The position numbers and the translations under genes were made by a program. From positions 1 to 42,852 of the IMG/VR virus record IMGVR_UViG_3300046804_003964: a stretch of DNA of 42,852 nt; one strand, given 5' to 3'. Numbering within the stretch: position 1 is the first letter of the stretch; every line of letters begins with the position of its first letter. This DNA comes from a virus. The notes beneath the pieces were generated by a model. The model made no database searches and was not told the DNA's origin. It was given only the letters and a program-made list of their open reading frames with translations. Below, in pieces: positions 8,206-23,010 of the stretch.

Positions 8206-8819
8206 GCATGTATTTTCGTGTACTGGATTGTCCCAACTATGAAGAAATCAACAACGACCTACGCGATTATGTTGTCAAATACACAACACTACTAACACCG
8301 ACGGCGCAGGGATCCTATCAATATGCAAACTTTCCAGATAAGTATGGCAAAAATATCTCACACTTTGTGCAATCCAATCCCAAATTGATCAATTATTTAC
8401 GGTCTCTTGACATGGTTATAAGAGATGCATATTTTACATTGGCCTGGGAAACAAACGTGCTGGGCTATCCTGAGTCTAGTTGTCCTATACATTTAGATAA
8501 ACCGCCGGTGGGTTGGAAATTGAATTGGCCGATTTTCAACATGGAACGAACATGTGTGAGATTTTATCATCCAAATAATCCTGATGTAGATGTCAACACC
8601 TTGGTAACAAGAACAGGTGACCCTGACAGCAAAGATAGAGACAGATACATGCTGGCCTACAAAGATTTTTATGAAGTTGAAAGACACGACTTTGCTCGCA
8701 ATCAACCGATTATTATGTATGGACAGGTGGGACACGACATTGGATTTTATCCAGATCCTGTGTTTCCTAGAATTGGACTTCAGGCAATGTTTTTTAAAGA
8801 ACCAACGCATTTGTTATGA
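8202..8819 (+). CDS. Probable 2-oxoglutarate/Fe(II)-dependent oxygenase-like protein
   Basis: The 205-residue product carries a possible facial triad on a double-stranded beta helix: H97-x-D99 in CPIHLDKPP, and a distal H178 in GQVGHDIGF. R190 follows 12 residues later (PRIGLQAMFF), as in 2OG-binding hydroxylases. Between them are beta-rich segments (WKLNWPIFNMERTCVRFY) with the aromatic and basic pattern of these folds. The call is motif-based and could be wrong in detail. It overlaps the radical SAM gene before it and the SDR gene after it by 4 bases each. Such a tight trio suggests one pathway or modification reaction series. Confidence 0.6.
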   Translation: MSMYFRVLDCPNYEEINNDLRDYVVKYTTLLTPTAQGSYQYANFPDKYGKNISHFVQSNPKLINYLRSLDMVIRDAYFTLAWETNVLGYPESSCPIHLDKPPVGWKLNWPIFNMERTCVRFYHPNNPDVDVNTLVTRTGDPDSKDRDRYMLAYKDFYEVERHDFARNQPIIMYGQVGHDIGFYPDPVFPRIGLQAMFFKEPTHLL

Positions 8820-9361
8820 AAATAGCTATCACAGGTGGAACTGCTGGTATCGGCCTGGCCCTAGCCAATGCATATCAAAGTCGAGGACATGAAATCGTGG
8901 CACTAAGTCGACGCACAGGACATAATATACGTGTGACGCCAAAAGTTGCAGATGCAATACAACCCTGTGATATGTTTGTCAACAATGCACAAGCAGGATA
9001 TGCACAGACTGACTTGTTGTTTGAAATGGCCAAACGATGGCAGGGCACAAACAAACATATTGTAGTAATCAGTACTATGATGACACAAGATCCCATCAGC
9101 GTGTTGCCTGGTATTGACATGACCGAATACCGTGTGCAAAAAGTTGCACTTGAAGAAGCAGTGCAACAACTGCGACACCATCACTTAGGAATTCAAATCA
9201 CACTGGTTCGTCCCGGCGACATAGCCACCAGCAGTGACAAAACAGTACCGCCTTCGGCAGATGTGGAGTCCTGGGCCAGTGTGTTAGTAAGCACATTGGA
9301 GATGGCACAGGCAAACAATTTGGTCATACCAGATATCAGTTTGGGACCAGCATGGCAATGA
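8816..9361 (+). CDS. Short-chain dehydrogenase/reductase (SDR)
   Basis: An NAD(P)-dependent oxidoreductase with a Rossmann fold. TGGTAGIG (6-13) is the TGxxxGxG cofactor loop, and NNAQAG (56-61) is the SDR NNAG motif. S86 and Y105-x3-K109 form the catalytic Ser-Tyr-Lys set. VRPGDIAT near 155 is the conserved PG motif. At 181 residues it is shorter than classical SDRs (about 250), mainly lacking insertions and the C-terminal substrate part. Arg32/Arg33 after the second strand hints at NADP preference. It sits in ATGA overlap with the oxygenase-like gene. The substrate is unknown; a nucleotide sugar or a glycan intermediate would suit the context. Confidence 0.88.
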   Translation: MKIAITGGTAGIGLALANAYQSRGHEIVALSRRTGHNIRVTPKVADAIQPCDMFVNNAQAGYAQTDLLFEMAKRWQGTNKHIVVISTMMTQDPISVLPGIDMTEYRVQKVALEEAVQQLRHHHLGIQITLVRPGDIATSSDKTVPPSADVESWASVLVSTLEMAQANNLVIPDISLGPAWQ

Positions 9362-10509
9362 CACCTAGAGACATGCTAACCAATCCACGTTTTTGTCCCA
9401 TGCCTTGGACTGGTCTCATGTACAATTTTGATGGTGCAGTGAAAAACTGTATTCGCAGTGGTGGTGCGCTTGGTAACATCAAAAATCAAGGCATAGAATC
9501 AATTTTGACTGACAACAATCGCCCCAGGCAACAGCAAATCGTAGATCAACAACCTGTACCAACTTGTCACACTTGCTATGATTTGGAACGTGGAAAACGT
9601 GGTTTTGATCACATCAGTGATCGTGTTTTTTACATACGTGAGTTAAAAAAAACGCCGGTTGATACCTATCAAATTGGCCGTTTTGATCTACAGACCATTG
9701 ATGTACGTTGGACAAATTTGTGTAATTTTGCCTGCGTGTATTGTGGTCCAGAATTCAGCAGTCGCTGGAGTGAAGAATTAAAAGTACAGCACTCTGTGCC
9801 TGATCAACTGCAACTGACCAATTTTAGAAACTATATCTATGATCATGCTGATCAATTACAGCATGTATACCTAGCAGGCGGGGAGCCGCTGTTGATGAAG
9901 GAAAATTTAACATTATTGGAAAAACTAAATCCCGGTACCAATATCAGAATAAACACTAACCTAAGCAAAGTTGACACCCGAGTGTTTGAAGCCATTTGTC
10001 AATTTCCAAACGTGCATTGGACAATCAGTGTGGAGACCATGGCCGAAGAATTTGAATACATTCGATACGGAGGGTCCTGGCCAGACTTTTTGGAAAATCT
10101 AAAAACAATTAAAAAGTTAGGTCACCGGATATCCTTTAACATGTTGCATTTTTTATTGAACTACAACTCAGTATTTGATTGTGTGGACTTCTTAAAAGGT
10201 CAAGGATTCCATAACAATAGTTTTGTAATAGGTGCGCTGTTGACTCCAGAATATCTAAACATTAGACATTTACCACAAACTGTGTTAAACTCTGTAAAGA
10301 GAAAGTTGCAGGACAGGATTAACCAAAAGCCCAGTTACCTTCTTGAAGACAGTTATAGAAATATGCTACACTATATTGATATACCTTTTGAGAAAAACAT
10401 TAAACAATCAATTGATACACTATCTGAAATGGATCGGCGTAGGGGCATAGACAGCAGGGCAATTTTTAAAGATTTTTATAAGGACATTAATCATGGCAAA
10501 ACCATTTGA
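9352..10509 (+). CDS. Radical SAM protein (twitch-type), copy 2
   Basis: The 385-residue product begins with the FCPMPW segment and NCIRSG/LGN motif common to twitch and SPASM-related radical SAM proteins. A TCHTCYDLE Cys pair follows (C72, C75). The core motif is CNFACVYC (C124, C128, C131) and GGEP is at 176-179. TNLS and SVET strands complete the half-barrel. ATG 9352 is used; ATG 9358, in ATGA overlap with the SDR stop, is equally plausible and removes two residues. The 3' end overlaps uvsX by 17 bases, so this enzyme is expressed with the recombination genes. The substrate is unknown. Confidence 0.87.
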   Translation: MAMTPRDMLTNPRFCPMPWTGLMYNFDGAVKNCIRSGGALGNIKNQGIESILTDNNRPRQQQIVDQQPVPTCHTCYDLERGKRGFDHISDRVFYIRELKKTPVDTYQIGRFDLQTIDVRWTNLCNFACVYCGPEFSSRWSEELKVQHSVPDQLQLTNFRNYIYDHADQLQHVYLAGGEPLLMKENLTLLEKLNPGTNIRINTNLSKVDTRVFEAICQFPNVHWTISVETMAEEFEYIRYGGSWPDFLENLKTIKKLGHRISFNMLHFLLNYNSVFDCVDFLKGQGFHNNSFVIGALLTPEYLNIRHLPQTVLNSVKRKLQDRINQKPSYLLEDSYRNMLHYIDIPFEKNIKQSIDTLSEMDRRRGIDSRAIFKDFYKDINHGKTI

Positions 10510-11548
10510 CGTAAGCAAATTCCGCAAGGAAATTACCAAGAGCATCGACGGACTGTCAATCGGCTTTAACGATCCCACAGACTGGATCTCAACAGGCAAC
10601 TATGCACTAAACTATTTGATCTCAGGAGACTTTAATCGTGGAATTCCACTAGGCAAGGTCACTGTGTTTGCTGGTGAATCGGGTGCCGGTAAAAGCTATA
10701 TATGCTCAGGAAATATTATTAAGAATGCCCAAGAACAAGGCATCTTTGTTGTTCTTATTGATTCAGAAAACGCACTTGATGAAACTTGGTTGCATGCTCT
10801 AGGCGTGGATACCGCAGAATCAAAACTGTTGAAACTGAGCATGGCCATGATTGATGACGTGGCCAAAACTATCTCAACATTCATGAGTGACTATAAAGCT
10901 CTGCCCGATGGCGAACGACCCAAAGTTCTGTTTGTTATCGACTCTTTGGGAATGTTGCTGACACCCACGGACATCAACCAGTTTGATAGCGGTGATCTCA
11001 AAGGCGACTTGGGACGAAAACCCAAAGCACTCACAGCATTGGTTCGTAACTGTGTCAATATGTTTGGTAGTTACAACGTGGGCCTGGTATGTACCAATCA
11101 CACATACGCAAGTCAGGACATGTTTGATCCTGACGATAAGATCAGCGGCGGTCAAGGATTTATCTATGCATCAAGTATTGTGGTGGCCATGAAGAAACTC
11201 AAACTCAAAGAGGACGAAGATGGCAACAAAGTCACTGATGTCATGGGTATTCGTAGTGCCTGTAAAGTAATGAAAACACGCTATGCCAAACCCTTTGAAG
11301 GTGTTCAGGTCAAGATTCCTTACGAAACAGGCATGAATCCATACTCGGGTCTTGTAGATCTTGCTGAAAAGAAAGGCTTCCTTAAGAAAGACGGCAACCG
11401 ACTGGCTTATACCACGCTCGACGGCGAAATTATCAAGTTTTTCCGCAAAGGTTGGGAATCAAATGAAAACGGCTGTCTTGACGTTGTGATGGCAGAGTTT
11501 GGAAAACGCAAGGAAGAGGTAACTACTGTTGAGGAGGAGTCTGAATGA
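10493..11548 (+). CDS. uvsX: UvsX RecA-like recombinase
   Basis: It forms filaments on ssDNA and drives strand exchange for recombination-dependent replication. The 351-residue product has Walker A GESGAGKS (61-68) and a Walker B region VLFVIDSLGMLL around 145-156. The L2-like SGGQGFIYASSIVV segment is followed by the KTRYAKPFEGVQVKIPY motif of phage recombinases. It ends in an acidic tail. AAGGA at 10480 supports the ATG. It is followed by a small acidic protein in ATGA overlap, then radical SAM copy 3 and the UvsY-like mediator. Confidence 0.96.
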   Translation: MAKPFDVSKFRKEITKSIDGLSIGFNDPTDWISTGNYALNYLISGDFNRGIPLGKVTVFAGESGAGKSYICSGNIIKNAQEQGIFVVLIDSENALDETWLHALGVDTAESKLLKLSMAMIDDVAKTISTFMSDYKALPDGERPKVLFVIDSLGMLLTPTDINQFDSGDLKGDLGRKPKALTALVRNCVNMFGSYNVGLVCTNHTYASQDMFDPDDKISGGQGFIYASSIVVAMKKLKLKEDEDGNKVTDVMGIRSACKVMKTRYAKPFEGVQVKIPYETGMNPYSGLVDLAEKKGFLKKDGNRLAYTTLDGEIIKFFRKGWESNENGCLDVVMAEFGKRKEEVTTVEEESE

Positions 11549-13043: not shown

Positions 13044-13485
13044 TAAAGTTACAGCATCCTTGGACACTATTCCGGACTTTATACAGTACTACGAGCAAGA
13101 ACTAGATGAAGCCAAAAAGGATTGTCGTATAGGTGGCATCGTAGAAAAAAATATCTCTACATTGCCGGGTATCACCGAGCATCGTTTTAATCAATTACAA
13201 GAAATCGAAGCAGTTCTCAACTATCTGAATATTCAACTAAGGAAAATTAGACGCAGACACTTTCAAAAATATCTCGAAGGATATGCTCGCGCACTGACCA
13301 GTCGCGATGCAGAAAAATATGTAGACGGTGAAGATGAAGTTATTGATTTTGAAACCATAATAAATGAAGTTGCACTACTACGTAACAAGTGGCTAGGAAT
13401 CCTCAAAGGACTAGATGCCAAACAGTGGCAAATGGGACACATAGTCAGATTGCGCACAGCAGGTATGGAAGATATCAGAATATAA
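13033..13485 (+). CDS. uvsY: UvsY-like recombination mediator
   Basis: UvsY displaces gp32 and loads UvsX on ssDNA. The 150-residue helical protein matches the size of T4 UvsY (137). It has a similar layout: basic central helix (NIQLRKIRRRHFQKYLEGYARAL), an acidic stretch, then a C-terminal WLGILKGLDAKQWQMGHIVRLRTAGM segment. That last segment resembles the WGILLDFCSGALDAIKSRGFAIKHIQDMR end of T4 UvsY as I recall it. Proximity to uvsX and gp32 supports the call. Confidence 0.75.
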   Translation: MWYSKVTASLDTIPDFIQYYEQELDEAKKDCRIGGIVEKNISTLPGITEHRFNQLQEIEAVLNYLNIQLRKIRRRHFQKYLEGYARALTSRDAEKYVDGEDEVIDFETIINEVALLRNKWLGILKGLDAKQWQMGHIVRLRTAGMEDIRI

Positions 13486-14243
13486 TGTTTTTTCATAATC
13501 AACAACAAAGTCATGAACACAGTTTAGAAACTCTAAACTGGTTATACGAACATGACGATTTCATGGCCAGTATTGATACCTTGATTGATTTGGGCTGTGG
13601 AGATGGCCTGGACATTGAATGGTGGGCAACCAGAACCACACGAGATGAAAATCCTGTGCCATTAAACATCAACTGCACCGGGGTAGATCTATTGCCAGAA
13701 TTATCTATTGCTCGTCAGTACAAAAATATTGTGTATCAAAAAAATAATTTTGAAGAACAAATTTATACTCCTAAAAGTAAAAAGTACGACGTACTATGGT
13801 GTCACGATAGTTTTCAATATGCAATAAACCCATTGGCCACATTGAAACTGTGGTGGAATATAGCTGCACCCGGTGCGATGCTTTGTTTGATATTGCCTCA
13901 GACAACCAACATTGAGCACCGTAAACTGAAATTTATTCAACCTCAAGGTTGTTACTACCATTACACAATTGTAAACTTGATTCATATGTTGGCGGTGTCG
14001 GGGTGGGACTGCGAATCGGGTTTCTTTAAAAAATCTCCCAATGACCCTTGGTTACATGCAGTGGTATATCGCAGTGATCGTGAACCTCAGGATCCAAAAA
14101 CAACATCTTGGTATCAACTTGCAGAACAAGGCTTGTTGCCCAAATCAGCTGCGATCAGTGTACTCAATCACGGATATGTGGTACAAAATGAGCTAGTGTT
14201 GCCATGGCTAGATAAAAATCTAACTTGGTTCGGCCAACATTGA
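13485..14243 (+). CDS. SAM-dependent methyltransferase (class I)
   Basis: The 252-residue product has motif I LIDLGCGDGLDIEWW near residues 31-45 and an acidic ribose strand CTGVDLLPE. The motif IV region is YDVLWCHDSFQYAINP, of the Methyltransf_11 type. The C-terminal half holds an alpha-beta extension ending in PWLDKNLTWFGQH. The start is ATG 13485 in TAATG overlap with uvsY; the longer in-frame extension to 13389 lies wholly inside uvsY and is rejected. The target is unknown. Confidence 0.85.
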   Translation: MFFHNQQQSHEHSLETLNWLYEHDDFMASIDTLIDLGCGDGLDIEWWATRTTRDENPVPLNINCTGVDLLPELSIARQYKNIVYQKNNFEEQIYTPKSKKYDVLWCHDSFQYAINPLATLKLWWNIAAPGAMLCLILPQTTNIEHRKLKFIQPQGCYYHYTIVNLIHMLAVSGWDCESGFFKKSPNDPWLHAVVYRSDREPQDPKTTSWYQLAEQGLLPKSAAISVLNHGYVVQNELVLPWLDKNLTWFGQH

Positions 14244-14246
14244 AAT

Positions 14247-15035
14247 ATGTGGCCAAAGTATGCGTATGCACACGACATGCCTGGAGAAAATGCCAAATGG
14301 TCACTGACTCCTTGGCGACTCAAGGGGATGAAAGAATTTGCAAGAGTAACAGACATACCCAGTGACTATGTGTTGATCAGCAGTCATCATCCGCCCTGGC
14401 GCGAACCTTTGCGCAGTTGGATTGCTGATGGTAGGCCTTATATTGAAATTGAATATGGATATTGGGGTCCTGATACGCCACGTAGACAAACTGCTAGAGT
14501 AACCTACAATAGCCATCATAACTTAAATATCCGTGCTGTTCCTTACAGTCGCACACATTTGTTTCCTGTACCTGAACACAAATCTTGGAGAACAACTTCA
14601 GGAGAATATGTTCTAGGTATACAACCTGTGGAATCTATATTGTTAGAGCGCACTGGCGAAACACTGGAACAATTTCGCCAGCGAATTAAAAATGACATAC
14701 AACCATATTGGTCAGGTCCTATTCAATGGCGCAAAAAAATTGGAGCTAAGACTGCAAGATTTGAAACATTTCAACAGCAGGCACTTGGCGCATATGCAGT
14801 TATAGGAGAACGCACTATGTCCTGCGTTGAAGCCTGTTTGTTGGGAGTTCCTGCCTACACCGTAGACAGATCGATGACCACACTGCTCATGGGCGGAGTC
14901 GAGAATCTGGCACGACCGCAATACCCAGATCGAACAGCATGGTGGGAACACATTTGTTGGAGCCAGTTTAATAGAAACGAGTTTGAAACAACCATACCTG
15001 CAGATTTAGTAGAACAGTATCAAATCCACCAATAA
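14247..15035 (+). CDS. Capsule_synth/GT-B-like paralog A
   Basis: First of six diverged relatives (14247, 16476, 17266, 18041, 19104, 21479). The 262-residue product shows IEIEYGYWGPD in the position of the family (Y/F)ID-GYFGN motif. The C-terminal part is ERTMSCVEACLLGVPAYTVD followed by WWEHICWSQFNRNEF, matching the S-x-x-x-E-A-x-x-x-G-x-P and SYSQF blocks of the others. These blocks resemble the donor-binding half of KpsS/KpsC-like capsule enzymes and other GT-B folds. The family HP motif is absent, so catalysis is uncertain. It begins 4 bases after the methyltransferase stop. Confidence 0.65.
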   Translation: MWPKYAYAHDMPGENAKWSLTPWRLKGMKEFARVTDIPSDYVLISSHHPPWREPLRSWIADGRPYIEIEYGYWGPDTPRRQTARVTYNSHHNLNIRAVPYSRTHLFPVPEHKSWRTTSGEYVLGIQPVESILLERTGETLEQFRQRIKNDIQPYWSGPIQWRKKIGAKTARFETFQQQALGAYAVIGERTMSCVEACLLGVPAYTVDRSMTTLLMGGVENLARPQYPDRTAWWEHICWSQFNRNEFETTIPADLVEQYQIHQ

Positions 15036-15038
15036 ATA
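15031..15038 (+). promoter_or_regulatory. Candidate late promoter box (AATAAATA)
   Basis: ATAAATA fits the T4-type late core and ends 5 bases before ATG 15044, the same spacing as at the terminase gene. The upstream gene's stop (15033-15035) overlaps it, so chance occurrence is possible. Confidence 0.35.
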
Positions 15039-15043
15039 TCGGC

Positions 15044-15802
15044 ATGAAAATCGTTATTGTTACTGGTGGATTTGATCCGTTGCATTCGGGTCACATTGCC
15101 TATTTCAAAGCAGCAAAAACTCTTGGAGATCGATTGGTTGTTGGTCTCAATTCTGATGAGTGGCTGGTTCGTAAAAAAGGCAGACCTTTTATGCCCTTGC
15201 AAGAAAGAATGGCCATTGTGGGCAATCTCGAGGTAGTTGACGAAGTTGTAATTTACAACGACGACGATGGTTCTAGTTGCGATGCTATTCAACTGGTCAA
15301 GGCACGCTACCCAGCTGCTGAAATTGTATTTGCCAACGGCGGCGACCGCACACAACACAACATCCCTGAGATGAGTGTAGAAGGTGTTGAATTTGTATTC
15401 GGGGTAGGCGGACAAGATAAAAAGAATTCTAGTAGTTGGATACTGGAAGATTGGAAAAAGCCCCGAACACAACGTAGCTGGGGTTATTATCGTGTGCTGC
15501 ACGAAGTTGGTTCACACACCAAGCTCAAGGAACTCACAGTCATGCCCAAAACATGTTTGAGTATGCAACGTCACGAGCAACGTGCAGAGTTTTGGTTTGT
15601 GGCCGAAGGCGAAGCTACGGTATATACTGTTGACAGCAAAAGCACTGACACAGAACTCAAATGTTCTATGACAATGCACGAAAACACTTGGATCTGTGCC
15701 AATGAGTGGCATCAACTGTGCAACGAATCTGACCAGCCTTTAAAACTTATCGAAATTCAATACGGTGACAACTGTATAGAAGAGGACATTGAACGCAGAT
15801 GA
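15044..15802 (+). CDS. Cytidylyltransferase-like domain fused to a mannose-6-phosphate-isomerase-type cupin
   Basis: Two domains can be seen in 252 residues. Residues 1-140 are an HxGH nucleotidyltransferase: GGFDPLHSGH (8-17) with H14 and H17, NSDEWLVRKKGRP, and the R-x-x-x-V-D-E-V-V strand. This is like RfaE-C or TagD, which make ADP- or CDP-activated sugars or glycerol. Residues 145-252 match the type II PMI cupin: RSWGYYRVLHE, LTVMPKTCLSMQRHEQRAEFWFVAEGEA, then WHQLCNESDQPLKLIEIQYG. Metal ligands are probably H177 and E182. The fusion could activate and isomerise a sugar for the neighbouring transferases. The following GT8-like gene overlaps by 4 bases. Confidence 0.88.
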   Translation: MKIVIVTGGFDPLHSGHIAYFKAAKTLGDRLVVGLNSDEWLVRKKGRPFMPLQERMAIVGNLEVVDEVVIYNDDDGSSCDAIQLVKARYPAAEIVFANGGDRTQHNIPEMSVEGVEFVFGVGGQDKKNSSSWILEDWKKPRTQRSWGYYRVLHEVGSHTKLKELTVMPKTCLSMQRHEQRAEFWFVAEGEATVYTVDSKSTDTELKCSMTMHENTWICANEWHQLCNESDQPLKLIEIQYGDNCIEEDIERR

Positions 15803-16479
15803 AACCTATTCCTGTGTTTGTTGGGTATGACCCCAGAGAAGCAGTGACTTATCATGTGTGTGCTAATTCTATAATTAGAAATGCATCGGCACCTGTGGCT
15901 ATTATACCATTGGCCTTGAATCTGTTTGAGGACTATATCGAAACTCACACCGATGGATCAAACCACTTTATCTATAGCCGTTTTTTGGTTCCACATCTAA
16001 TGGAATACACAGGACATGCTATATTCATTGACGGCGATATGATTGTGCGAGGAGACATTCTGGATCTTTGGAATTTGAGAGATGTTTACAAGGATGTACA
16101 GGTAGTCAAACACGATTATAAAACAAAGATGCCTGTGAAATATTTAGGAGCAAAGAATGAAGATTATCCAAGAAAAAATTGGAGTAGTGTTATTTTATGG
16201 AATTGTAACAGTTTCCCTAATCGCAAGCTTACTCCTGATTATATCCAGCGAAGTACCGGTGCTGAACTTCATCGTTTCACCTGGTTAGACGATGCTAGAA
16301 TTGGGGAACTACCACCTGAATGGAATTGGTTGCCCGATGAATACGGTGCAAATCCCAATGCCAAGCTGTTGCATTACACTCTGGGATCACCATGCTTTCA
16401 TGAATTTGCTACTACTCCTCAAGGAGATGAATGGCATCACGAACGCATGCTGACCGATTATTGTCAGCAAAGAACGTGA
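15799..16479 (+). CDS. Glycosyltransferase, GT8-like
   Basis: The 226-residue product follows GT8 architecture. PVFVGYDPREAVTYHVCANSI forms the N-terminal nucleotide site. The metal site is FIDGDMIVRGD (D78-x-D80). NWSSVILWNC matches the acceptor-side strand, and KLLHYTLGSPCF is the late His-containing motif that also coordinates metal. The start is in ATGA overlap with the cytidylyltransferase-cupin gene, so donor activation and transfer are probably co-translated. Donor and acceptor are unknown. Confidence 0.88.
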   Translation: MKPIPVFVGYDPREAVTYHVCANSIIRNASAPVAIIPLALNLFEDYIETHTDGSNHFIYSRFLVPHLMEYTGHAIFIDGDMIVRGDILDLWNLRDVYKDVQVVKHDYKTKMPVKYLGAKNEDYPRKNWSSVILWNCNSFPNRKLTPDYIQRSTGAELHRFTWLDDARIGELPPEWNWLPDEYGANPNAKLLHYTLGSPCFHEFATTPQGDEWHHERMLTDYCQQRT

Positions 16480-17273
16480 AAACTGTATTGTGCATTAATC
16501 GAAAAGGTCCCGATATGGAAATTCAGGACCGACAGGCAGCATTTGTAAATCGTTTCGCTGAAGGGTGCAACGGTAAACTACTGTCGGCAGCTGAAGCATT
16601 CGAATATCCCATTGAATATCCAATTTGTGTTCGCGGCATGAAATTCACTCGCTGGGTTAAATTGGCGGCTGCCCAAGGCAGAGAATACTATTACATTGAC
16701 AACGGATATTTTGGCAATCACGGCCGCAAAGTTTACTTTAGAATTATCAAGAACAATGTGCATGATGTGAGAAGTATTATTGATCGTCCAGCAGATAGAT
16801 TGGTACCTTGCGAGGTAAAGTTAAAAAACTTTACACCTGGGAGTAAAATTTTGTTGGCACCGCCCAGCGTCAAAAGTTTTACCATGTGGGACATAGATCA
16901 GGAACAGTGGATTGCAAAAACCATTGCTGAAATCAAAAAGCACACTGATCGCCCCATAGAAGTTAGACTAAAACGTCCAAGAAATGATCGCATGGCAGTG
17001 GACACAATAGAAGAAGCACTAGACAATGATGTTCATTGTTTGGTCACATACAATTCGGTGGCAGCATGCGAAGCTGTTATGTTAGGTAAGCCAGCTATTA
17101 CGCTAGGTCCTAATGCTGCTGGTGTGGTGTGCTCTAATACTCTTGCTGAAATAGAAAATCCACATATCCCAACCTATGACGAACGTGATGCCTGGTTGCG
17201 TCATTTGAGCTATAGTCAGTTTACATTTACAGAAATGAGTGATGGAACTGCATGGGGACTGCTCAATGAATGA
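16476..17273 (+). CDS. Capsule_synth/GT-B-like paralog B
   Basis: The 265-residue product has the clear family blocks: YYYIDNGYFGNHGRKVYFRIIKN; SKILLAPPSVKSF; an HTDRPIEVRLKRP strand; TYNSVAACEAVMLGKPAITLGP; and a terminal LRHLSYSQFTFTEM-GTAW. GTG at 16476 (GTGA overlap with the GT8-like stop) is the preferred start, because translation from the further-upstream frame runs inside the previous gene. Where capsule enzymes have HP after the strand, this protein has KRPRND. Its closest relatives in the window are the next two genes, consistent with tandem duplication. Confidence 0.72.
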   Translation: MKTVLCINRKGPDMEIQDRQAAFVNRFAEGCNGKLLSAAEAFEYPIEYPICVRGMKFTRWVKLAAAQGREYYYIDNGYFGNHGRKVYFRIIKNNVHDVRSIIDRPADRLVPCEVKLKNFTPGSKILLAPPSVKSFTMWDIDQEQWIAKTIAEIKKHTDRPIEVRLKRPRNDRMAVDTIEEALDNDVHCLVTYNSVAACEAVMLGKPAITLGPNAAGVVCSNTLAEIENPHIPTYDERDAWLRHLSYSQFTFTEMSDGTAWGLLNE

Positions 17274-18057
17274 TGTTCCTATTCTAGGGTACGCTAAGAA
17301 AGACAAGTGGGTCGGGCCTTTTATTGAATATCTTGATGGCAGGATGGCCACTATAGAAGAAATCTACGCCAATACAACTGTTCCCATGGTCTTTTCAGGG
17401 GTAAGCAAAAGTGCTGCTCTTACTCAAGCAAAAAAACACAATTTGCCTTGGTGGTATATAGATACCGGATATTTTGGAAATGCAAGAGATAAGATTTGGT
17501 TTAGAGTGACCAAAAACAGCCATCAAAATATCTATCCCGTTCGGCCACGAGATGACTTGAGATTAAAAAAGTTTAGACTTGACAGAACACAATACAAGAG
17601 AGGTCGTAAAATTTTAGTAGTGCCTCCTGATATCAAAGTATGTAGTTGTTATCAATTGCCCGATCCTGAGCAATGGGTCGCAGACACAGTGGACTTGATC
17701 AAACAACACACAGATCGACCCATTGAAATACGTTGTAGGCCTGCCAGCCGTCAAGTTCGCATGTTTAGTGATACCTTTGCTGCTACATTGCAAAACGATG
17801 TCAATGCTGTGGTTGTATGGACCAGCAATTGCGGAACCGAATCAGTGCAGCACGGAATACCTGTGGTTAGTCTGGGGCCTAGCTCTGTTATTCAAGTCAG
17901 CCAAGACATTGTACACATTGACAATTTGCAAGACTTGGATCAACAACGCTGCGAAGATTTATTGAGATGGCTGAGTTACAATCAGTTTACAATTGCTGAA
18001 ATGCGCAATGGCACGGCATGGAAAATACTACAAGAAAATTATGAAAGCAATAATTAA
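17266..18057 (+). CDS. Capsule_synth/GT-B-like paralog C
   Basis: The 263-residue product repeats the pattern of paralog B: WWYIDTGYFGNARDKIWFRVTKN, RKILVVPPDIKVC, QHTDRPIEIRCRPA, WTSNCGTESVQHGIPVVSLGP, and LRWLSYNQFTIAEMRNGTAWKIL. Its N-terminal stretch is unlike that of B. The ATG at 17266 overlaps the previous stop. The HP pair is replaced by RP-A. The strong similarity to B in the C-terminal third shows common origin; function remains inferred. Confidence 0.72.
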   Translation: MNDVPILGYAKKDKWVGPFIEYLDGRMATIEEIYANTTVPMVFSGVSKSAALTQAKKHNLPWWYIDTGYFGNARDKIWFRVTKNSHQNIYPVRPRDDLRLKKFRLDRTQYKRGRKILVVPPDIKVCSCYQLPDPEQWVADTVDLIKQHTDRPIEIRCRPASRQVRMFSDTFAATLQNDVNAVVVWTSNCGTESVQHGIPVVSLGPSSVIQVSQDIVHIDNLQDLDQQRCEDLLRWLSYNQFTIAEMRNGTAWKILQENYESNN

Positions 18058-19111
18058 TCAGGAAGAATTGCTAGAACCGCTGGCTAGACGAATACTGATT
18101 CAATATTATAAACACAAGCAAGTTGATTACAGTAATGTATATCAGTATTTGCAAAAACTATCAAAGCAATTTGTCAAAACTGGACTGCTGAATATTGATT
18201 TTGGTCATGTGAACAGTGAATTGTTTGCCAGTTTAACAAAACACACTGACTGGTTGGTCAGCGATTATAAATCAAAATATCGTCCCTTGACAAACTGGTT
18301 AGAGCACAGTAATTTGGATATAGACCCAAAAATTCTGTTGAATTGGTATTCACTGTCTAGCCATCGAGGATTTACCAAGACTCTTGCATCTACAATAACT
18401 GCAAATTTTGAATGTATAACATCAACCAATGATGATTTTTGTAGCGATGTGCTAATTAGAAATGTCATCCACAATGAAAGATCAATTGCACAACGCCTTT
18501 CAGCAGGCAGTGATTTCTGGTTCACGGACACAGGGTATACAAATTTTCTTGTACACAAAGGCAAACCGTGGCATAGACTGGTTCGCAATCATGTGCATAC
18601 AAATCTAAGTCATTTGAATTTTCCAGCCAACAGATTAGCTCTGTTGCCAAGCATGCCTGCGCCATGGAGAACCACAGGACATAAAGTGTTAGTGGTTGAG
18701 AGCAGTGACAATCATTATCAAATGTTTGGCACAGATAGAAACAGTTGGAGAGATTCCATCAGCAACGACTTGGCAAAGTACACCGACAAACCAGTTGAGT
18801 ACCGTAGCAAATCATTGAATAAAAAAACTCGAGATTCTGTTTACAATTTATTGATGTCATCAAACGATTATTATTGTGTTATATCTGATTCAAGTGCAGC
18901 AGCGGTAGAAGCAATCTGGGCCGGTGTTCCTGTAATTACTTTGAACAAACATATCACAGTACCTGTGGCTCGCACACAGATAGCAGATATTAACAATTTA
19001 TATCGCGGTCCAATTGGCGATTGGTTGTGTGCACTATCATACAGTCAGTTTACCAAAAAAGAAATGCTCGACGGAACAGCTTATAGGATCATAGAAAAAT
19101 ATCATGTATGA
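18041..19111 (+). CDS. Capsule_synth/GT-B-like paralog D with an N-terminal extension
   Basis: At 356 residues this is the longest member. The first 130 or so residues are a helical extension (NQEELLEPLARRILIQYYKHKQ) not seen in the other copies. The family blocks then follow: FWFTDTGYTNF, HKVLVVESSDNHYQMF, KYTDKPVEYRSKS, DSSAAAVEAIWAGVPVITLN, and LCALSYSQFTKKEMLDGTAYRII. ATG 18041 overlaps the previous stop by 17 bases. The HP pair is absent. The extension might bind a partner or the acceptor. Confidence 0.7.
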   Translation: MKAIINQEELLEPLARRILIQYYKHKQVDYSNVYQYLQKLSKQFVKTGLLNIDFGHVNSELFASLTKHTDWLVSDYKSKYRPLTNWLEHSNLDIDPKILLNWYSLSSHRGFTKTLASTITANFECITSTNDDFCSDVLIRNVIHNERSIAQRLSAGSDFWFTDTGYTNFLVHKGKPWHRLVRNHVHTNLSHLNFPANRLALLPSMPAPWRTTGHKVLVVESSDNHYQMFGTDRNSWRDSISNDLAKYTDKPVEYRSKSLNKKTRDSVYNLLMSSNDYYCVISDSSAAAVEAIWAGVPVITLNKHITVPVARTQIADINNLYRGPIGDWLCALSYSQFTKKEMLDGTAYRIIEKYHV

Positions 19112-20006
19112 TGTGGCAGTATATCTCAGTAGTTTGCCTCGTATAGCAGATCGCAACAGAAAAGTCCAAGTACTACAAGCATTTGCGCACGGAGCCAAAG
19201 CATCAGGTGCCAATACTATACTGCAAACTACATATCAAACTGTTCCAGCTAGGTTGGCAGTGATCTTGGGATGGGTTGGACAAACAATTGCCGGACCGCA
19301 CATTGATTTGCGCCGTCGTGTTATAGTCGAGCAACAACAAACAGGACAAAAGCTAATGAGTGTAGACGGAAGCTGTTTTAAGTTTGCTGATGTTAACAGC
19401 GTGTTTCTTAGATACAGTTTGGATGGAGTATACTATAACACCAACAATTATGCAAATCAAAATAGCAACAGTGACAAATGGGAATTGATCAAAACACAAC
19501 TTAATTTAGAACTCAGACCTTGGCGTCAAACTGGACAACATATTCTAGTGTGTGGTCAGAGAGACGGTGGCTGGGCCATGAAGGGCATAGATATGCCTGC
19601 ATGGACATTACAAACAGTGCAACAATTAAGGCTGCACACAGATAGGCCCATCATAGTTAGACCGCATCCCAAAAATCCTATCGATGCTCAACTTTTTAAC
19701 AAATATAAAAATGTTAAGCTCAGTAGCAATGCTTCATTGCAACAAGATTTAAACAATTGTTGGGCCAGTGTGTTCTTCAATAGTTCAAGTTGTGTGGCCA
19801 GTGTGTTGGCAGGTATACCAGTTTTTGCAGAAGATCCAGATTGTGTTGCCTGGGCGGTATCAAACAACGACCTGTCACACATTGAACATCCCAAGATGCC
19901 TTTGAGAGAACAATGGTTATGGGATTTGTCTGCGGCACATTGGAACGACAATGAAAGTCGTAGTGGCGATATTTACAAGAAATTTAGACCGTTTTTACCA
20001 ACCTAA
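19104..20006 (+). CDS. Capsule_synth/GT-B-like paralog E (HP motif retained)
   Basis: The 300-residue product shows HILVCGQRDGGWAMKG, LHTDRPIIVRPHPKNPIDAQLF with an intact HP, and FFNSSSCVASVLAGIPVFAEDPDCVAWAVS. The RPHP and S-S-x-x-x-x-x-L-A-G-I-P pair closely follow the Capsule_synth (KpsS-like) signature, making this the best guide to the family's identity. It overlaps the preceding gene by 8 bases. It converges with the minus-strand FkbM gene, sharing 12 bases at the 3' ends. Confidence 0.78.
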   Translation: MYDVAVYLSSLPRIADRNRKVQVLQAFAHGAKASGANTILQTTYQTVPARLAVILGWVGQTIAGPHIDLRRRVIVEQQQTGQKLMSVDGSCFKFADVNSVFLRYSLDGVYYNTNNYANQNSNSDKWELIKTQLNLELRPWRQTGQHILVCGQRDGGWAMKGIDMPAWTLQTVQQLRLHTDRPIIVRPHPKNPIDAQLFNKYKNVKLSSNASLQQDLNNCWASVFFNSSSCVASVLAGIPVFAEDPDCVAWAVSNNDLSHIEHPKMPLREQWLWDLSAAHWNDNESRSGDIYKKFRPFLPT

Positions 20007-20642
20007 TATAACATCATGGTTGACACGAGCCAATTGTTGAGCACCCCAAGACTTCAATAATTCAGCTGCCTGATACTGATTTTGTTCAGTTCTGCCAGTG
20101 TCTTTGTGCAGTTTTTGTTCTACTACAACCACAGGTTGAAATCGTTTGATTGTTTGTTCTGCGCCCAGCAAGATATTGTATTCGTAACCCTCGCAATCTA
20201 TTTTTACATAATCAAAACGATCTAAGTTCAGCGAGTCTAATCGATACATGGGAATAAGGCCTTGGCCACGACTGGATTCATCTACATGACTGTGGCCAGT
20301 ATTTTCTTCGGTGATGATCATATTGATCATAGTGTCTTCGGTGCCCAGGGCGCAGGCACGCAAATCTAAATTGTCAGCAACAACATTACGCATCAAGCAC
20401 TCGCGAAAATCCGGCACAGGTTCAAATGCAATCACACGTTGAAATACAGCACATAGGTCTCGGGTCCACAGCCCTACATTGGCACCAATGTCCAATGCTG
20501 TGCCTTTTTTTGTAAAATCAAAACTGCGCCGACGCACAGGTTCCTGATACACTGGGGCATGACCTTTTTCGACATTCTTGGCCAGCATTTCTGCAAAATG
20601 TGTGTCTTGGTCAGGAAACCACCATCCATGTGCCTGATACAT
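19995..20642 (-). CDS. FkbM-family methyltransferase
   Basis: The 215-residue product has the FkbM signatures: LDIGANVGLWTRDL (50-63, SAM loop), VIAFEPVPDFRECL (70-83), IDCEGYEYNILLGAEQTI, and VVVVEQKLH. FkbM enzymes methylate hydroxyl groups of sugars and small molecules and are common in glycan clusters. The start is ATG at 20642, in TAATG overlap with the glycosyltransferase upstream on the same strand. It is one of only three minus-strand genes in the window. Confidence 0.92.
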   Translation of the reverse strand: MYQAHGWWFPDQDTHFAEMLAKNVEKGHAPVYQEPVRRRSFDFTKKGTALDIGANVGLWTRDLCAVFQRVIAFEPVPDFRECLMRNVVADNLDLRACALGTEDTMINMIITEENTGHSHVDESSRGQGLIPMYRLDSLNLDRFDYVKIDCEGYEYNILLGAEQTIKRFQPVVVVEQKLHKDTGRTEQNQYQAAELLKSWGAQQLARVNHDVILGW

Positions 20643-21466
20643 TATTTTTTTCCTTTGTGTAGTACATTTTGCCAATAGGGATTATCAGCGTGTAATATCA
20701 CTTCCTTGGGCTTGGAGTGTCCTTGTTGTTTGCGATCTCCTTTGACATGATCCATAACAGCTCCAAGTGCACTGTTTATAAACGGATGCCCTGCAAGACC
20801 TTTGTCGTCGTAGCTAGGGTTGAGATTATGAAACTTACAACGCTGTTGAAACTGCTTTCGCAAAACGTCAAAAATATAACTGTCATGCCACTCACGCTGT
20901 TGAAAAATAGCATCAGTGTTGTACATGTTTACAAAATCTTTTATAAACTGCCTGCATTCAAGAGCATCGAGATTGTAGGCCACCCACCCACATTCGGAAT
21001 GATATTTTTCGCCTCTTCCTAGATAGCTTGCAAAACAACTAGGCGGACACACTGATCTTAGAAAATTCATTGTCACTGCGCTATGAGTAACAGTATCAGC
21101 ATCAATCCAAATCATCCACCCAGAATTTATCATATTGGCGGCCGCGGCTTTGGCATAAACTTTGTAGCAAAATCTCACAGCATCCCAACGAAATTGTTTT
21201 TTGGGATTGAACACGTCAGGTGGGCCGGCCTTTCCGTGTGCCATGGGATTGTTTTGGTGCCGTTTGATAAATGCCTGTAAATCAGAACTGGCCTCGAGTA
21301 AATCCACAACTTTGGTATTTGGTCTGGATATTTTGGGTGTGCAATTTTCGGCTAGCACAACAAGATCAACTTCTGCCGGCCAATATTTTTCAAATGTGTC
21401 TATCATACGCTGACCATATTGTTCTAGACCAGATGGGTGAAACGTGGTAATTACTGTGTATTTCAT
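20642..21466 (-). CDS. Glycosyltransferase (DxD, GT-A-like)
   Basis: The 274-residue product starts KYTVITTFHPSGLEQYGQRM, typical of this phage glycosyltransferase group. It has SGWMIWIDADTVTH with D122-x-D124. GRGEKYHSECGWVAYNL and HDSYIFDVLRK form the acceptor-side elements, and the protein ends in VILHADNPYWQN. It forms a two-gene unit with FkbM on the minus strand. It diverges from paralog F, whose likely start lies only 12 bases beyond this start codon, so promoters for the two must overlap coding sequence. Confidence 0.82.
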   Translation of the reverse strand: MKYTVITTFHPSGLEQYGQRMIDTFEKYWPAEVDLVVLAENCTPKISRPNTKVVDLLEASSDLQAFIKRHQNNPMAHGKAGPPDVFNPKKQFRWDAVRFCYKVYAKAAAANMINSGWMIWIDADTVTHSAVTMNFLRSVCPPSCFASYLGRGEKYHSECGWVAYNLDALECRQFIKDFVNMYNTDAIFQQREWHDSYIFDVLRKQFQQRCKFHNLNPSYDDKGLAGHPFINSALGAVMDHVKGDRKQQGHSKPKEVILHADNPYWQNVLHKGKK

Positions 21467-21478
21467 GCGAGATATTTA

Positions 21479-22279
21479 GTGACCAAAACAGTGACCTATT
21501 TTCCTTTGCAGTGTGCTTTGAATTCTAAACCAGTCATGGCAGCAGTGCTGTCTTCTCTTCAAAAGCAAGGATTTAAAACAGTACCCAATAGTAAGGACGC
21601 AGACATAGCAGTAATATGGAGTGTGCTTTGGTCCGGGCGTATGTTGCCTAACAAGGAAATTTATGAGTTGTATCAAAAAACTGGTCGTCCGGTTGTATGC
21701 ATCGACGTTGGCACATTGCTACGAGGAATAACTTGGAAAATAGCATTGAACAATATCAATGCACTAGGCTATTACGGGCACAAAAGCAATTTAGATTTCG
21801 AGCGACCACAAAAACTAGGCATCAGTTTGTCAAACAATTCCGTCAACCACGGGCGTATACTAGTAGCCGGCCAGCACAGACAAAGTTTGCAACTACAGGG
21901 TGTTGATCAAGAAACATGGTATCTACAACGCATACAGGAAGTTGCTCAAGGTCGACAAGTAGTTGTAAGGTCACACCCGCGCTGTGCACTGGACCGAAGC
22001 CGCTTTTCTAAAGACATTTTATGGGAGGTTCCTAAAAAACTGATTAATACATATGACAGTTTTGATATAAATTTGCAATTTGATGCGGTGATAAATTATA
22101 ACTCAGGCCCTGGAATACAAGCAGTTATATCTGGAGTTCCTGCAATTGTTGATCAATCCAGCTTGGCATATGGGATCACAGAACGGCATCAATGGTTGGT
22201 TGAAATATGCCATACAGAATATACCATAGAAGAAATTGAACAAGGATCATGGGTAAAAAGGATAGGGTTAGAGCACTAG
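21479..22279 (+). CDS. Capsule_synth/GT-B-like paralog F (HP motif retained)
   Basis: About 266 residues. Family features are VVCIDVGTLLRG (in place of YID-GYFG), GRILVAGQHRQSLQLQGVD, QVVVRSHPRCALDRSRF with an intact HP, and NYNSGPGIQAVISGVPAIVDQSSLAYGI, ending WLVEICHTEYTIEEIEQGSW. The start is uncertain: GTG 21479 or GTG 21491 is likely, while the extension to 21437 would overlap the divergent gene. It resembles paralog E more than B-D in the donor half. No clear ribosome site was found. Confidence 0.7.
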   Translation: MTKTVTYFPLQCALNSKPVMAAVLSSLQKQGFKTVPNSKDADIAVIWSVLWSGRMLPNKEIYELYQKTGRPVVCIDVGTLLRGITWKIALNNINALGYYGHKSNLDFERPQKLGISLSNNSVNHGRILVAGQHRQSLQLQGVDQETWYLQRIQEVAQGRQVVVRSHPRCALDRSRFSKDILWEVPKKLINTYDSFDINLQFDAVINYNSGPGIQAVISGVPAIVDQSSLAYGITERHQWLVEICHTEYTIEEIEQGSWVKRIGLEH

Positions 22280-23010
22280 CACAGTCCGCAGGCCGCCCGC
22301 CTGCTGGACCAATTGATTGTGCTTGTCTCATACACGGGTGTGTCTACAGCTGGGAATATGTTGATAGACTCTACAATATGTTGAAGCGACATTTAAGTCA
22401 GGATATAAAGTTTCATGTGTACACCGAGGCAGATCGTAAAGTGCCTGAGCACATGATAAAACATGAGCTTAAGGATCTTCACGTTTCGGGACCAAAAAAA
22501 GCTTGGTGGTATAAATTGCAGTTGTTTAATCACAAATATCATCAAGGACCCATGCTGTACTTTGATCTTGACACAGTGATCACAGACAACATTGATTGGA
22601 TAACACACCAAAATTTAGATTACTTCTGGGCTCCTAGAGATTTCAAACGATTATGGCGTCCCAGTCATACTGGAATTAATAGTTCAGTGATGTGGTGGGA
22701 TACTAGGAAATTTGAAGATGTTTGGCAAACGTTTCGTCAACAAGAATTCGCACTGCTGCAAAGACGTTATCCAGGAGACCAAGATTTTCTAAGTGACGTA
22801 GTTGATCAAACTCGTAGACGTTTTCTCAATGAGCAACTGATACGCAGTTGGAAATGGGAGTGCTTAGACGGCGGCTGGGATTTTCGACATCGAAAATATA
22901 AAGCACCTAAATCTGGTACAATGCTTAATGGTGCTAGTGTGTTGGTATTTCACGGACAACCAAACCCTGCAGACGTGCAAGATTCACTGATTATACAACA
23001 TTGGCAATAG
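22249..23010 (+). CDS. Glycosyltransferase (DxD, GT-A-like)
   Basis: The 253-residue product has CACLIHGCVYSWEYVDRLYNML at the N-terminal nucleotide site. The metal site is MLYFDLDTVITDN with D106-x-D108. GINSSVMWWD and YPGDQDFLSDV are typical of GT-A enzymes related to the LPS transferase and GT8 groups, and VLVFHGQPNP is the C-terminal His motif. AAGGA lies just before the ATG. It overlaps paralog F by 31 bases and closes the glycan block; a late promoter follows at once. Confidence 0.87.
   Translation: MGKKDRVRALAQSAGRPPAGPIDCACLIHGCVYSWEYVDRLYNMLKRHLSQDIKFHVYTEADRKVPEHMIKHELKDLHVSGPKKAWWYKLQLFNHKYHQGPMLYFDLDTVITDNIDWITHQNLDYFWAPRDFKRLWRPSHTGINSSVMWWDTRKFEDVWQTFRQQEFALLQRRYPGDQDFLSDVVDQTRRRFLNEQLIRSWKWECLDGGWDFRHRKYKAPKSGTMLNGASVLVFHGQPNPADVQDSLIIQHWQ

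Follow-up and report, generated by a model that had tools for sequence, protein, structure and literature searches.

What does a phage do with six diverged copies of one glycosyltransferase-like gene? The question is raised by a 42.9 kb IMG/VR virus record (IMGVR_UViG_3300046804_003964; 42,852 nucleotides, 41.8% GC), referred to here as the window. The six genes, named P1 to P6, lie on its plus strand between positions 14,247 and 22,279. From sequences and models, we propose, with a probability of roughly 0.66, that they are ancient paralogues forming a phage branch of the KpsC/WbbB/KrkA superfamily, the transferases of 3-deoxy-D-manno-oct-2-ulosonic acid (beta-Kdo) and ulosonates, and that they encode active, single-displacement transferases building a phage glycan. 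This kind of enzyme is itself known; what is new here is that the catalytic Asp is lost in all six, with clade-specific replacements. Because all six lost the residue that known enzymes use on the sugar, the phage family is probably a separate, still undescribed branch that makes a phage sugar chain by a different chemistry.

Six ancient paralogues of one family

The first-pass annotation, made from the letters of the window, had described six open reading frames (ORFs) as copies of one family. All six are present with the starts it gave: P1 (14,247–15,035, 262 residues), P2 (16,476–17,273, 265 residues), P3 (17,266–18,057, 263 residues), P4 (18,041–19,111, 356 residues with an N-terminal extension), P5 (19,104–20,006, 300 residues) and P6 (21,479–22,279, 266 residues). 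The ORFs at 16,476 and 21,479 begin with GTG and have longer in-frame alternatives; for P2, an alternative ATG start at 16,431 has an AAGGAG box upstream and would overlap the preceding gene, a family 8 glycosyltransferase (GT8), by about 49 bases. All-against-all BLAST of the window ORFs matched P2 with P3 (7e-45), P2 with P4 (2e-26), P1 with P4 (3e-12), P5 with P6 (4e-10) and P2 with P6 (4e-6), against a background of about 0.03 or worse between the six and unrelated ORFs. Comparison of profiles built from each clade gave probabilities of 96.4–100% for all pairs save P1/P6 (46.5%), P1 matching the P2 to P5 profiles at 96.7–98.7%. A profile of the six sequences finds 189 ORFs in related loci, with no match between E 1e-8 and 10, and iteration adds none; P1 orthologues are present in 46 IMG/VR loci. 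By these sequence comparisons, P1–P6 are a single paralogous family.

The copies had been judged too diverged to be recent, and kept and specialised by the phage lineage. Phylogeny bears this out. In a maximum-likelihood tree of 77 representatives (a quick method; the tree is unrooted and contains long branches), P1 to P6 occupy six separate clades that also contain orthologues on other phage contigs, with Shimodaira–Hasegawa-like approximate likelihood ratio (SH-aLRT) supports of 99–100 per clade. Recent duplication is thereby ruled out, every copy being in its own orthologous clade. Four of the seven long records hold six members and three hold five, and the median within-clade ratio of nonsynonymous to synonymous substitution rates (dN/dS) is 0.08–0.17 (pairs with dS 0.1–1.2; P3 is one pair). 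Because the copies have their own clades, recur in sets of five or six and show low dN/dS, they are, on sequence evidence, retained and selected separately, under strong purifying selection; clade-specific invariant residues likewise speak for specialisation. As first suggested, the paralogues may plausibly differ in the sugar that they add or in the acceptor that they use. A seventh paralogue clade, absent from the window, was found in some relatives (L075:3991–4797, L029:6562–7359, L078:6450–7355 and L011:12147–12962).

No bacterial relatives were found in genome-contig scans with P2 and with a distant phage relative (the L018 protein, below), the full-family alignment offering no stretch conserved enough to use as a scan query. 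The sole plasmid match is in a Bradyrhizobium phage-plasmid. This element, Bradyrhizobium elkanii plasmid pUSDA31-2 (L082:1–15554), is listed as a plasmid but holds portal, tail tube and tape-measure genes, together with a GT9 gene, methyltransferases and one family member.

Fold of the phage proteins

None of the six proteins reaches the cut-off of any family in Pfam, PHROGs or NCBIfam. For PF05159 (Capsule_synth), P3 alone of the six matches, over residues 166–205, at 18.7 bits against a gathering cut-off of 20; with an E-value limit of 1, the match extends to 10 of 69 family members, the best at 5e-5. AlphaFold2 models of P2 and P6, both built from family alignments of mixed paralogues, had predicted local distance difference test (pLDDT) scores of 96.3 and 92.6. 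In Foldseek searches of the PDB, WbbB (1.8e-8), KpsC (7e-7) and KrkA (1.8e-6) lead for P6, and KpsC (E 1.1e-4) leads for P2 with WbbB second. VIA Z-scores agree: 14.2 for P6 against KpsC (235 residues aligned), 12.1 against WbbB and 10.3 against KrkA, the next family scoring 7.6; 11.7, 11.0 and 9.7 for P2, the next match scoring 9.1. A polysialyltransferase chain, 5wcn, stands further down the P6 list (Z 6.6). As modelled, P2 and P6 share the modified GT-B fold of KpsC, WbbB and KrkA.

An independent profile–profile comparison with KpsC modules, from a KpsC/KpsS set of six modules taken from plasmid records, gave the family profile probabilities of 96.7% (E 3.5e-10; 174 columns) and 96.6% (187 columns). 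Controls stayed far lower, with maxima of 1.3% for 10 unrelated gene families of the same phages and 1.0% for 20 column-shuffled targets. Single-clade profiles matched KpsC at 93.5% (P6), 72% (P3), 65% (P2), 52% (P4), 7.6% (P5) and 2.5% (P1). Because a sequence search of the PDB was not significant (best relevant match WbbB, E 0.4–0.6), the fold claim rests on the models and profiles. Our literature search found no phage KpsC/GT99-like enzyme. The kinship to KpsS-like GT-B enzymes that had been read from motifs therefore extends to the fold and the nucleotide site; the known chemistry is not part of it, since all six clades have lost the catalytic Asp and four the His of HP.

Active-site residues

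In the characterised enzymes, Kdo is bound covalently, as an adduct, by the Asp of a QXXXD motif, whose Gln binds the Kdo carboxylate; a (K/R)XHP motif and a Ser/Glu pair hold cytidine monophosphate (CMP); the general base is Glu158 in WbbB and Glu66 in KpsC; and the QXXXD Asp is termed absolutely conserved (PMC9587256, PMC10148158, PMC12887879). Replacing this Asp in KpsC by Ala abolishes adduct and product, while Asn leaves ~3.5% and Cys <1% conversion (PMC10148158). Profile alignment sets the (Y/F)ID-x-GY block of the phage family (IDNGY in P2) on RLE66DGF of KpsC, the Glu being residue 66 in the Citrobacter KpsC used. The KxLVxPP strand maps to the strand preceding QXXXD, the HTDRPIE(V/I)R strand to the (K/R)XHP-bearing strand and NS..EA to the nucleotide Ser/Glu. 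HMMER aligns RPHP and NS..EA with WbbB, and weakly pairs the base block (IDVG) with HIE158IG, a fragment that alone scores below zero. The shared motifs of the first-pass annotation were right in outline; P1, however, has IE-x-GYWG and not ID, P5 (IDGSCF) and P6 (IDVG) are without GYFGN, and the S-x-x-x-E/Q block ascribed to all six has Ala for Glu/Gln in P5 and Thr for Ser in P1.

Residues were tabulated over 161 full-length aligned orthologues of P1–P6. An acid, mostly Asp rather than Glu, occupies the base position in 161 of 161; the cytosine-contacting (K/R)XHP arginine is Arg in 100% (Arg/Lys in P4), and the phosphate-contact residue is Ser/Thr in 100%. In contrast, QXXXD with its catalytic Asp occurs in 0 of 161. 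HP is found in 100% of the P5 and P6 clades and is absent from P1–P4, where Arg alone (Arg/Lys in P4) remains. At the ribose-contact position, P1, P2, P4 and 83% of P3 retain Glu, whereas P5 has Ala and P6 has Gln. The nucleophile loop carries residues fixed by clade: QHxxS in P6 (Ser 100%), QRDGG in P5 (Asp-Gly-Gly 100%), PP(S/D)xK in P2 and half of P3 (Lys 100% in both clades), SxxH in P4 (His 95%) and QPVE in most P1. In P2 and P6 the alignment has a gap at the KpsC Asp column, which leaves the exact replacement residue uncertain.

In P2 of the window, Asp75 of YIDNGY (16,698–16,700) aligns with the KpsC general base Glu66 (PMC10148158, PMC9587256). Residues 129–134 (PPSVKS; 16,860–16,877) lie at the nucleophile loop, with neither Gln nor Asp, Lys133 being invariant in the clade; Arg164 (16,965–16,967) is the retained (K/R)XHP arginine, followed by K-R in place of HP; and Ser194 to Glu199 (17,055–17,072) span the phosphate- and ribose-contact positions (compare Ser271/Glu276 of KrkA). 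P6 has the loop QHRQS (Gln132–Ser136; 21,872–21,886), with Ser instead of the nucleophilic Asp, and RSHP. P5 retains RPHP. P4 has the loop E-S-S-D-N-H, and P1 combines the loop IQPVE, the Arg with Lys for His, and a T....E nucleotide site. The base, Arg and Ser/Thr being retained under a dN/dS of 0.08–0.17, the proteins are therefore functional.

Among distant relatives, QXXXD was seen in one protein, at L018:4792–5610 of podovirus MW202713 (Manatee Spring), where no gene is annotated. With the full set of QVPQD, RPHP, S....E and LETGY, it is, from its sequence, a candidate for a phage-encoded retaining ulosonate transferase of the canonical type.

A glycan island in a T4-like phage

The genes form an island with largely conserved synteny in 21 related loci, lying between UvsX on one side and an AAA protein/UvsW on the other. 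Its order is a class I S-adenosylmethionine (SAM) methyltransferase (13,389–14,243), P1, an RfaE/GCT-type nucleotidyltransferase fused to a mannose-6-phosphate-isomerase-type cupin (15,044–15,802), the GT8-like glycosyltransferase (15,799–16,479), P2, P3, P4, P5, an FkbM-family methyltransferase (19,995–20,675, minus strand), a conserved protein without Pfam or NCBIfam match (20,642–21,466, minus strand), P6 and a phage glycosyltransferase (phrog_1962; 22,249–23,010); the partners are on the plus strand unless stated. In another lineage the P4–P5 pair is inverted and P3 is missing. The nucleotidyltransferase–cupin fusion is conserved in the island, and its nucleotidyltransferase half resembles marine cyanophage proteins. 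In unrelated phages (Caulobacter phages, the Bradyrhizobium phage-plasmid, a podovirus), the neighbours of family members are glycosyltransferases and methyltransferases on the one hand and tail, portal or terminase genes on the other. Two members in Pelagibacter phage Mosig likewise have glycosyltransferase and methyltransferase genes next to them. In these other phages, the family genes lack an annotation or are called hypothetical.

The source phage is large and from freshwater, and its gp32-, UvsX-, UvsW-, primase- and DnaB-like genes mark it as T4-like. The closest UvsX proteins of annotated phages to that of the window (10,493–11,548) are 65–68% identical and all come from jumbo phages of 349–490 kb, including Sinorhizobium phage Phosso, Agrobacterium phage Atu_ph07 and Cronobacter phage GAP32; the window is thus, by sequence similarity, probably a fragment of a jumbo phage. 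Megablast against phage records found no near-identical phage. Around uvsX, between 7,264 and 13,043, are genes for three radical-SAM proteins, of which one matches SPASM; some relatives have them and others do not. Adjoining them is a short ORF of 181 residues (8,816–9,361) resembling short-chain dehydrogenases/epimerases, whose Pfam matches span only the first 34–49 residues.

Proposed mechanism and alternatives

We propose that each paralogue is an active transferase performing one step of a phage-directed glycan, which the FkbM and SAM enzymes would methylate. Without the Asp, the double displacement through an Asp adduct used by WbbB, KpsC and KrkA would be impossible for the phage enzymes. 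The acceptor, activated by the retained Asp/Glu, would instead attack the nucleotide-sugar directly, an inverting single displacement of the kind that HP-motif sialyltransferases use. This is the most economical mechanism, since the base and nucleotide site are kept, the nucleophile is lost and the active-site residues are strongly selected. P5 and P6, which retain R-x-HP in their sequences, probably use CMP-sugars; P1–P4 may use another donor. A fuller picture is tentative, and we judge it less likely than not: in this viral branch without a nucleophile, every phage would have five or six paralogues whose active-site chemistries are fixed and differ from one to the next, and together these would build, step by step and by inversion, a glycan specified by the phage.

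Several points weigh against the proposal of active, single-displacement transferases. Two of the six proteins were folded, from mixed-paralogue alignments, P1, P3, P4 and P5 being placed by sequence profile, and P1 (2.5%) and P5 (7.6%) reach KpsC solely through the family profile. The margin of P2 over other GT-B matches is small (Z 11.7 to 9.5 versus 9.1). Searches of eight phage records, mostly incomplete, detected neither CMP-Kdo synthetase (PF02348) nor NeuB (PF03102), and the donor and acceptor proposals are drawn from context. Finally, the loop Lys (P2/P3), His (P4) and Ser (P6) could act as other nucleophiles, so that inversion is not forced. The paralogues would then be retaining transferases with a substitute nucleophile, the Asp at Q+2 serving in P5, or would work by front-side internal substitution (SNi), on CMP-Kdo-like or other donors. 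That the loop residues are invariant or near-invariant in each clade, and that P5 and P6 retain the Gln that binds the Kdo carboxylate, fits such enzymes. We nevertheless think them unlikely: to our knowledge, Lys and His are not known as covalent nucleophiles of glycosyl transfer in GT-B enzymes. In addition, Asp mutants of KpsC are nearly or fully inactive (PMC10148158). A non-catalytic role is less probable still; some paralogues, or all of them, would then be pseudo-enzymes whose binding of nucleotide-sugars or glycans serves to scaffold or regulate GT8 and the glycosyltransferase at 22,249. The nucleophile is gone in six clades, HP in four and the ribose-contact Glu in P5 and P6; but all clades keep the base acid, Arg and Ser/Thr, the fixed set of active-site residues differs from clade to clade, dN/dS is low as given above (0.08–0.17), and a scaffold would not be expected to retain the base.

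T4 DNA glucosyltransferases, which act on hydroxymethylcytosine, are likewise GT-B enzymes, and the island lies among replication genes (gp32, UvsX, AAA protein, UvsW), as would suit glycosylation of hypermodified phage DNA. We regard this as the least probable of the alternatives: a thymidylate-synthase-like deoxycytidine monophosphate hydroxymethylase (PF00303) was not found in eight records, mostly fragments (G000, six related contigs of 49–133 kb and phage Mosig), in which control searches matched, and the relatives in other phages adjoin tail, portal or terminase genes. The neighbourhood in other phages suggests a virion protein as acceptor; a virion protein or host surface glycan is more likely than DNA. 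Remodelling of a host surface glycan (the O-chain of lipopolysaccharide), which would exclude other phages, is compatible with the enzymes proposed here; we deem it possible but on the unlikely side. GT8 and RfaE-like genes such as those of the island have been proposed, in pelagimyophages, to alter the host surface glycan and so exclude other phages (PMC7029224), and the two members in Mosig adjoin glycosyltransferases and methyltransferases; yet, of the island genes examined, none could be recognised as coding for a flippase, a lipid-carrier transferase or a membrane-bound Gtr.

Double-displacement Kdo transferases are an exception among retaining glycosyltransferases. Some 190 essentially unannotated proteins now join their fold, in clades with different fixed active-site residues, and suggest that aquatic T4-like phages share a conserved island for building a glycan. 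If the fuller picture given above is true, the branch would show a nucleophile-dependent transferase fold arising from, or reverting to, a base-only mechanism. The phage clades, together with the full-set L018 relative, make gain or loss of the nucleophile directly testable.

Comparison with known systems

The island resembles the GT/rfaE clusters of pelagimyophages, which are likewise aquatic, T4-like and equipped with GT8, RfaE-like and further glycan genes, although no six-paralogue array is described in the passages of that account consulted (PMC7029224). Phage Mosig EXVC030M carries two family members, annotated as hypothetical, and both lie outside the six clades. Like the HP-motif sialyltransferases (GT29, 38, 42, 52, 80), P5 and P6 have (K/R)XHP without a nucleophile, and the proposed mechanism is of that type; the whole-fold match, however, goes to KpsC. 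With KpsC (GT107 retaining beta-Kdo modules; 6MGB, 6MGC, 6MGD, 8FUW, 8FUX), the family shares a near-full-length fold, the D/E-x-G-Y/F base motif, the (K/R)XHP Arg, the nucleotide Ser and, in P1–P4, the Glu. Unlike KpsC, whose two modules have ~320 residues each, the phage proteins are one short module (262–300 residues, 356 in P4) at ~10–14% identity; they are without Asp160 of QXXXD, and P1–P4 are without HP. The P2 and P6 models match WbbB (GT99; 5FA1, 8CSB) over the full length, yet the family has no equivalent of Asp232 and, in P6, 266 versus ~390 residues. KrkA (GT140; 9YFX) and KpsS/KpsS1 (GT118) have the superfamily fold, and KpsS has a corresponding FEEGY block; the phage family differs from KrkA in having no equivalent of its QXXXD Asp193. 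Whereas the KrkA base sits on another element (PMC12887879), that of the phage family is at the WbbB/KpsC position.

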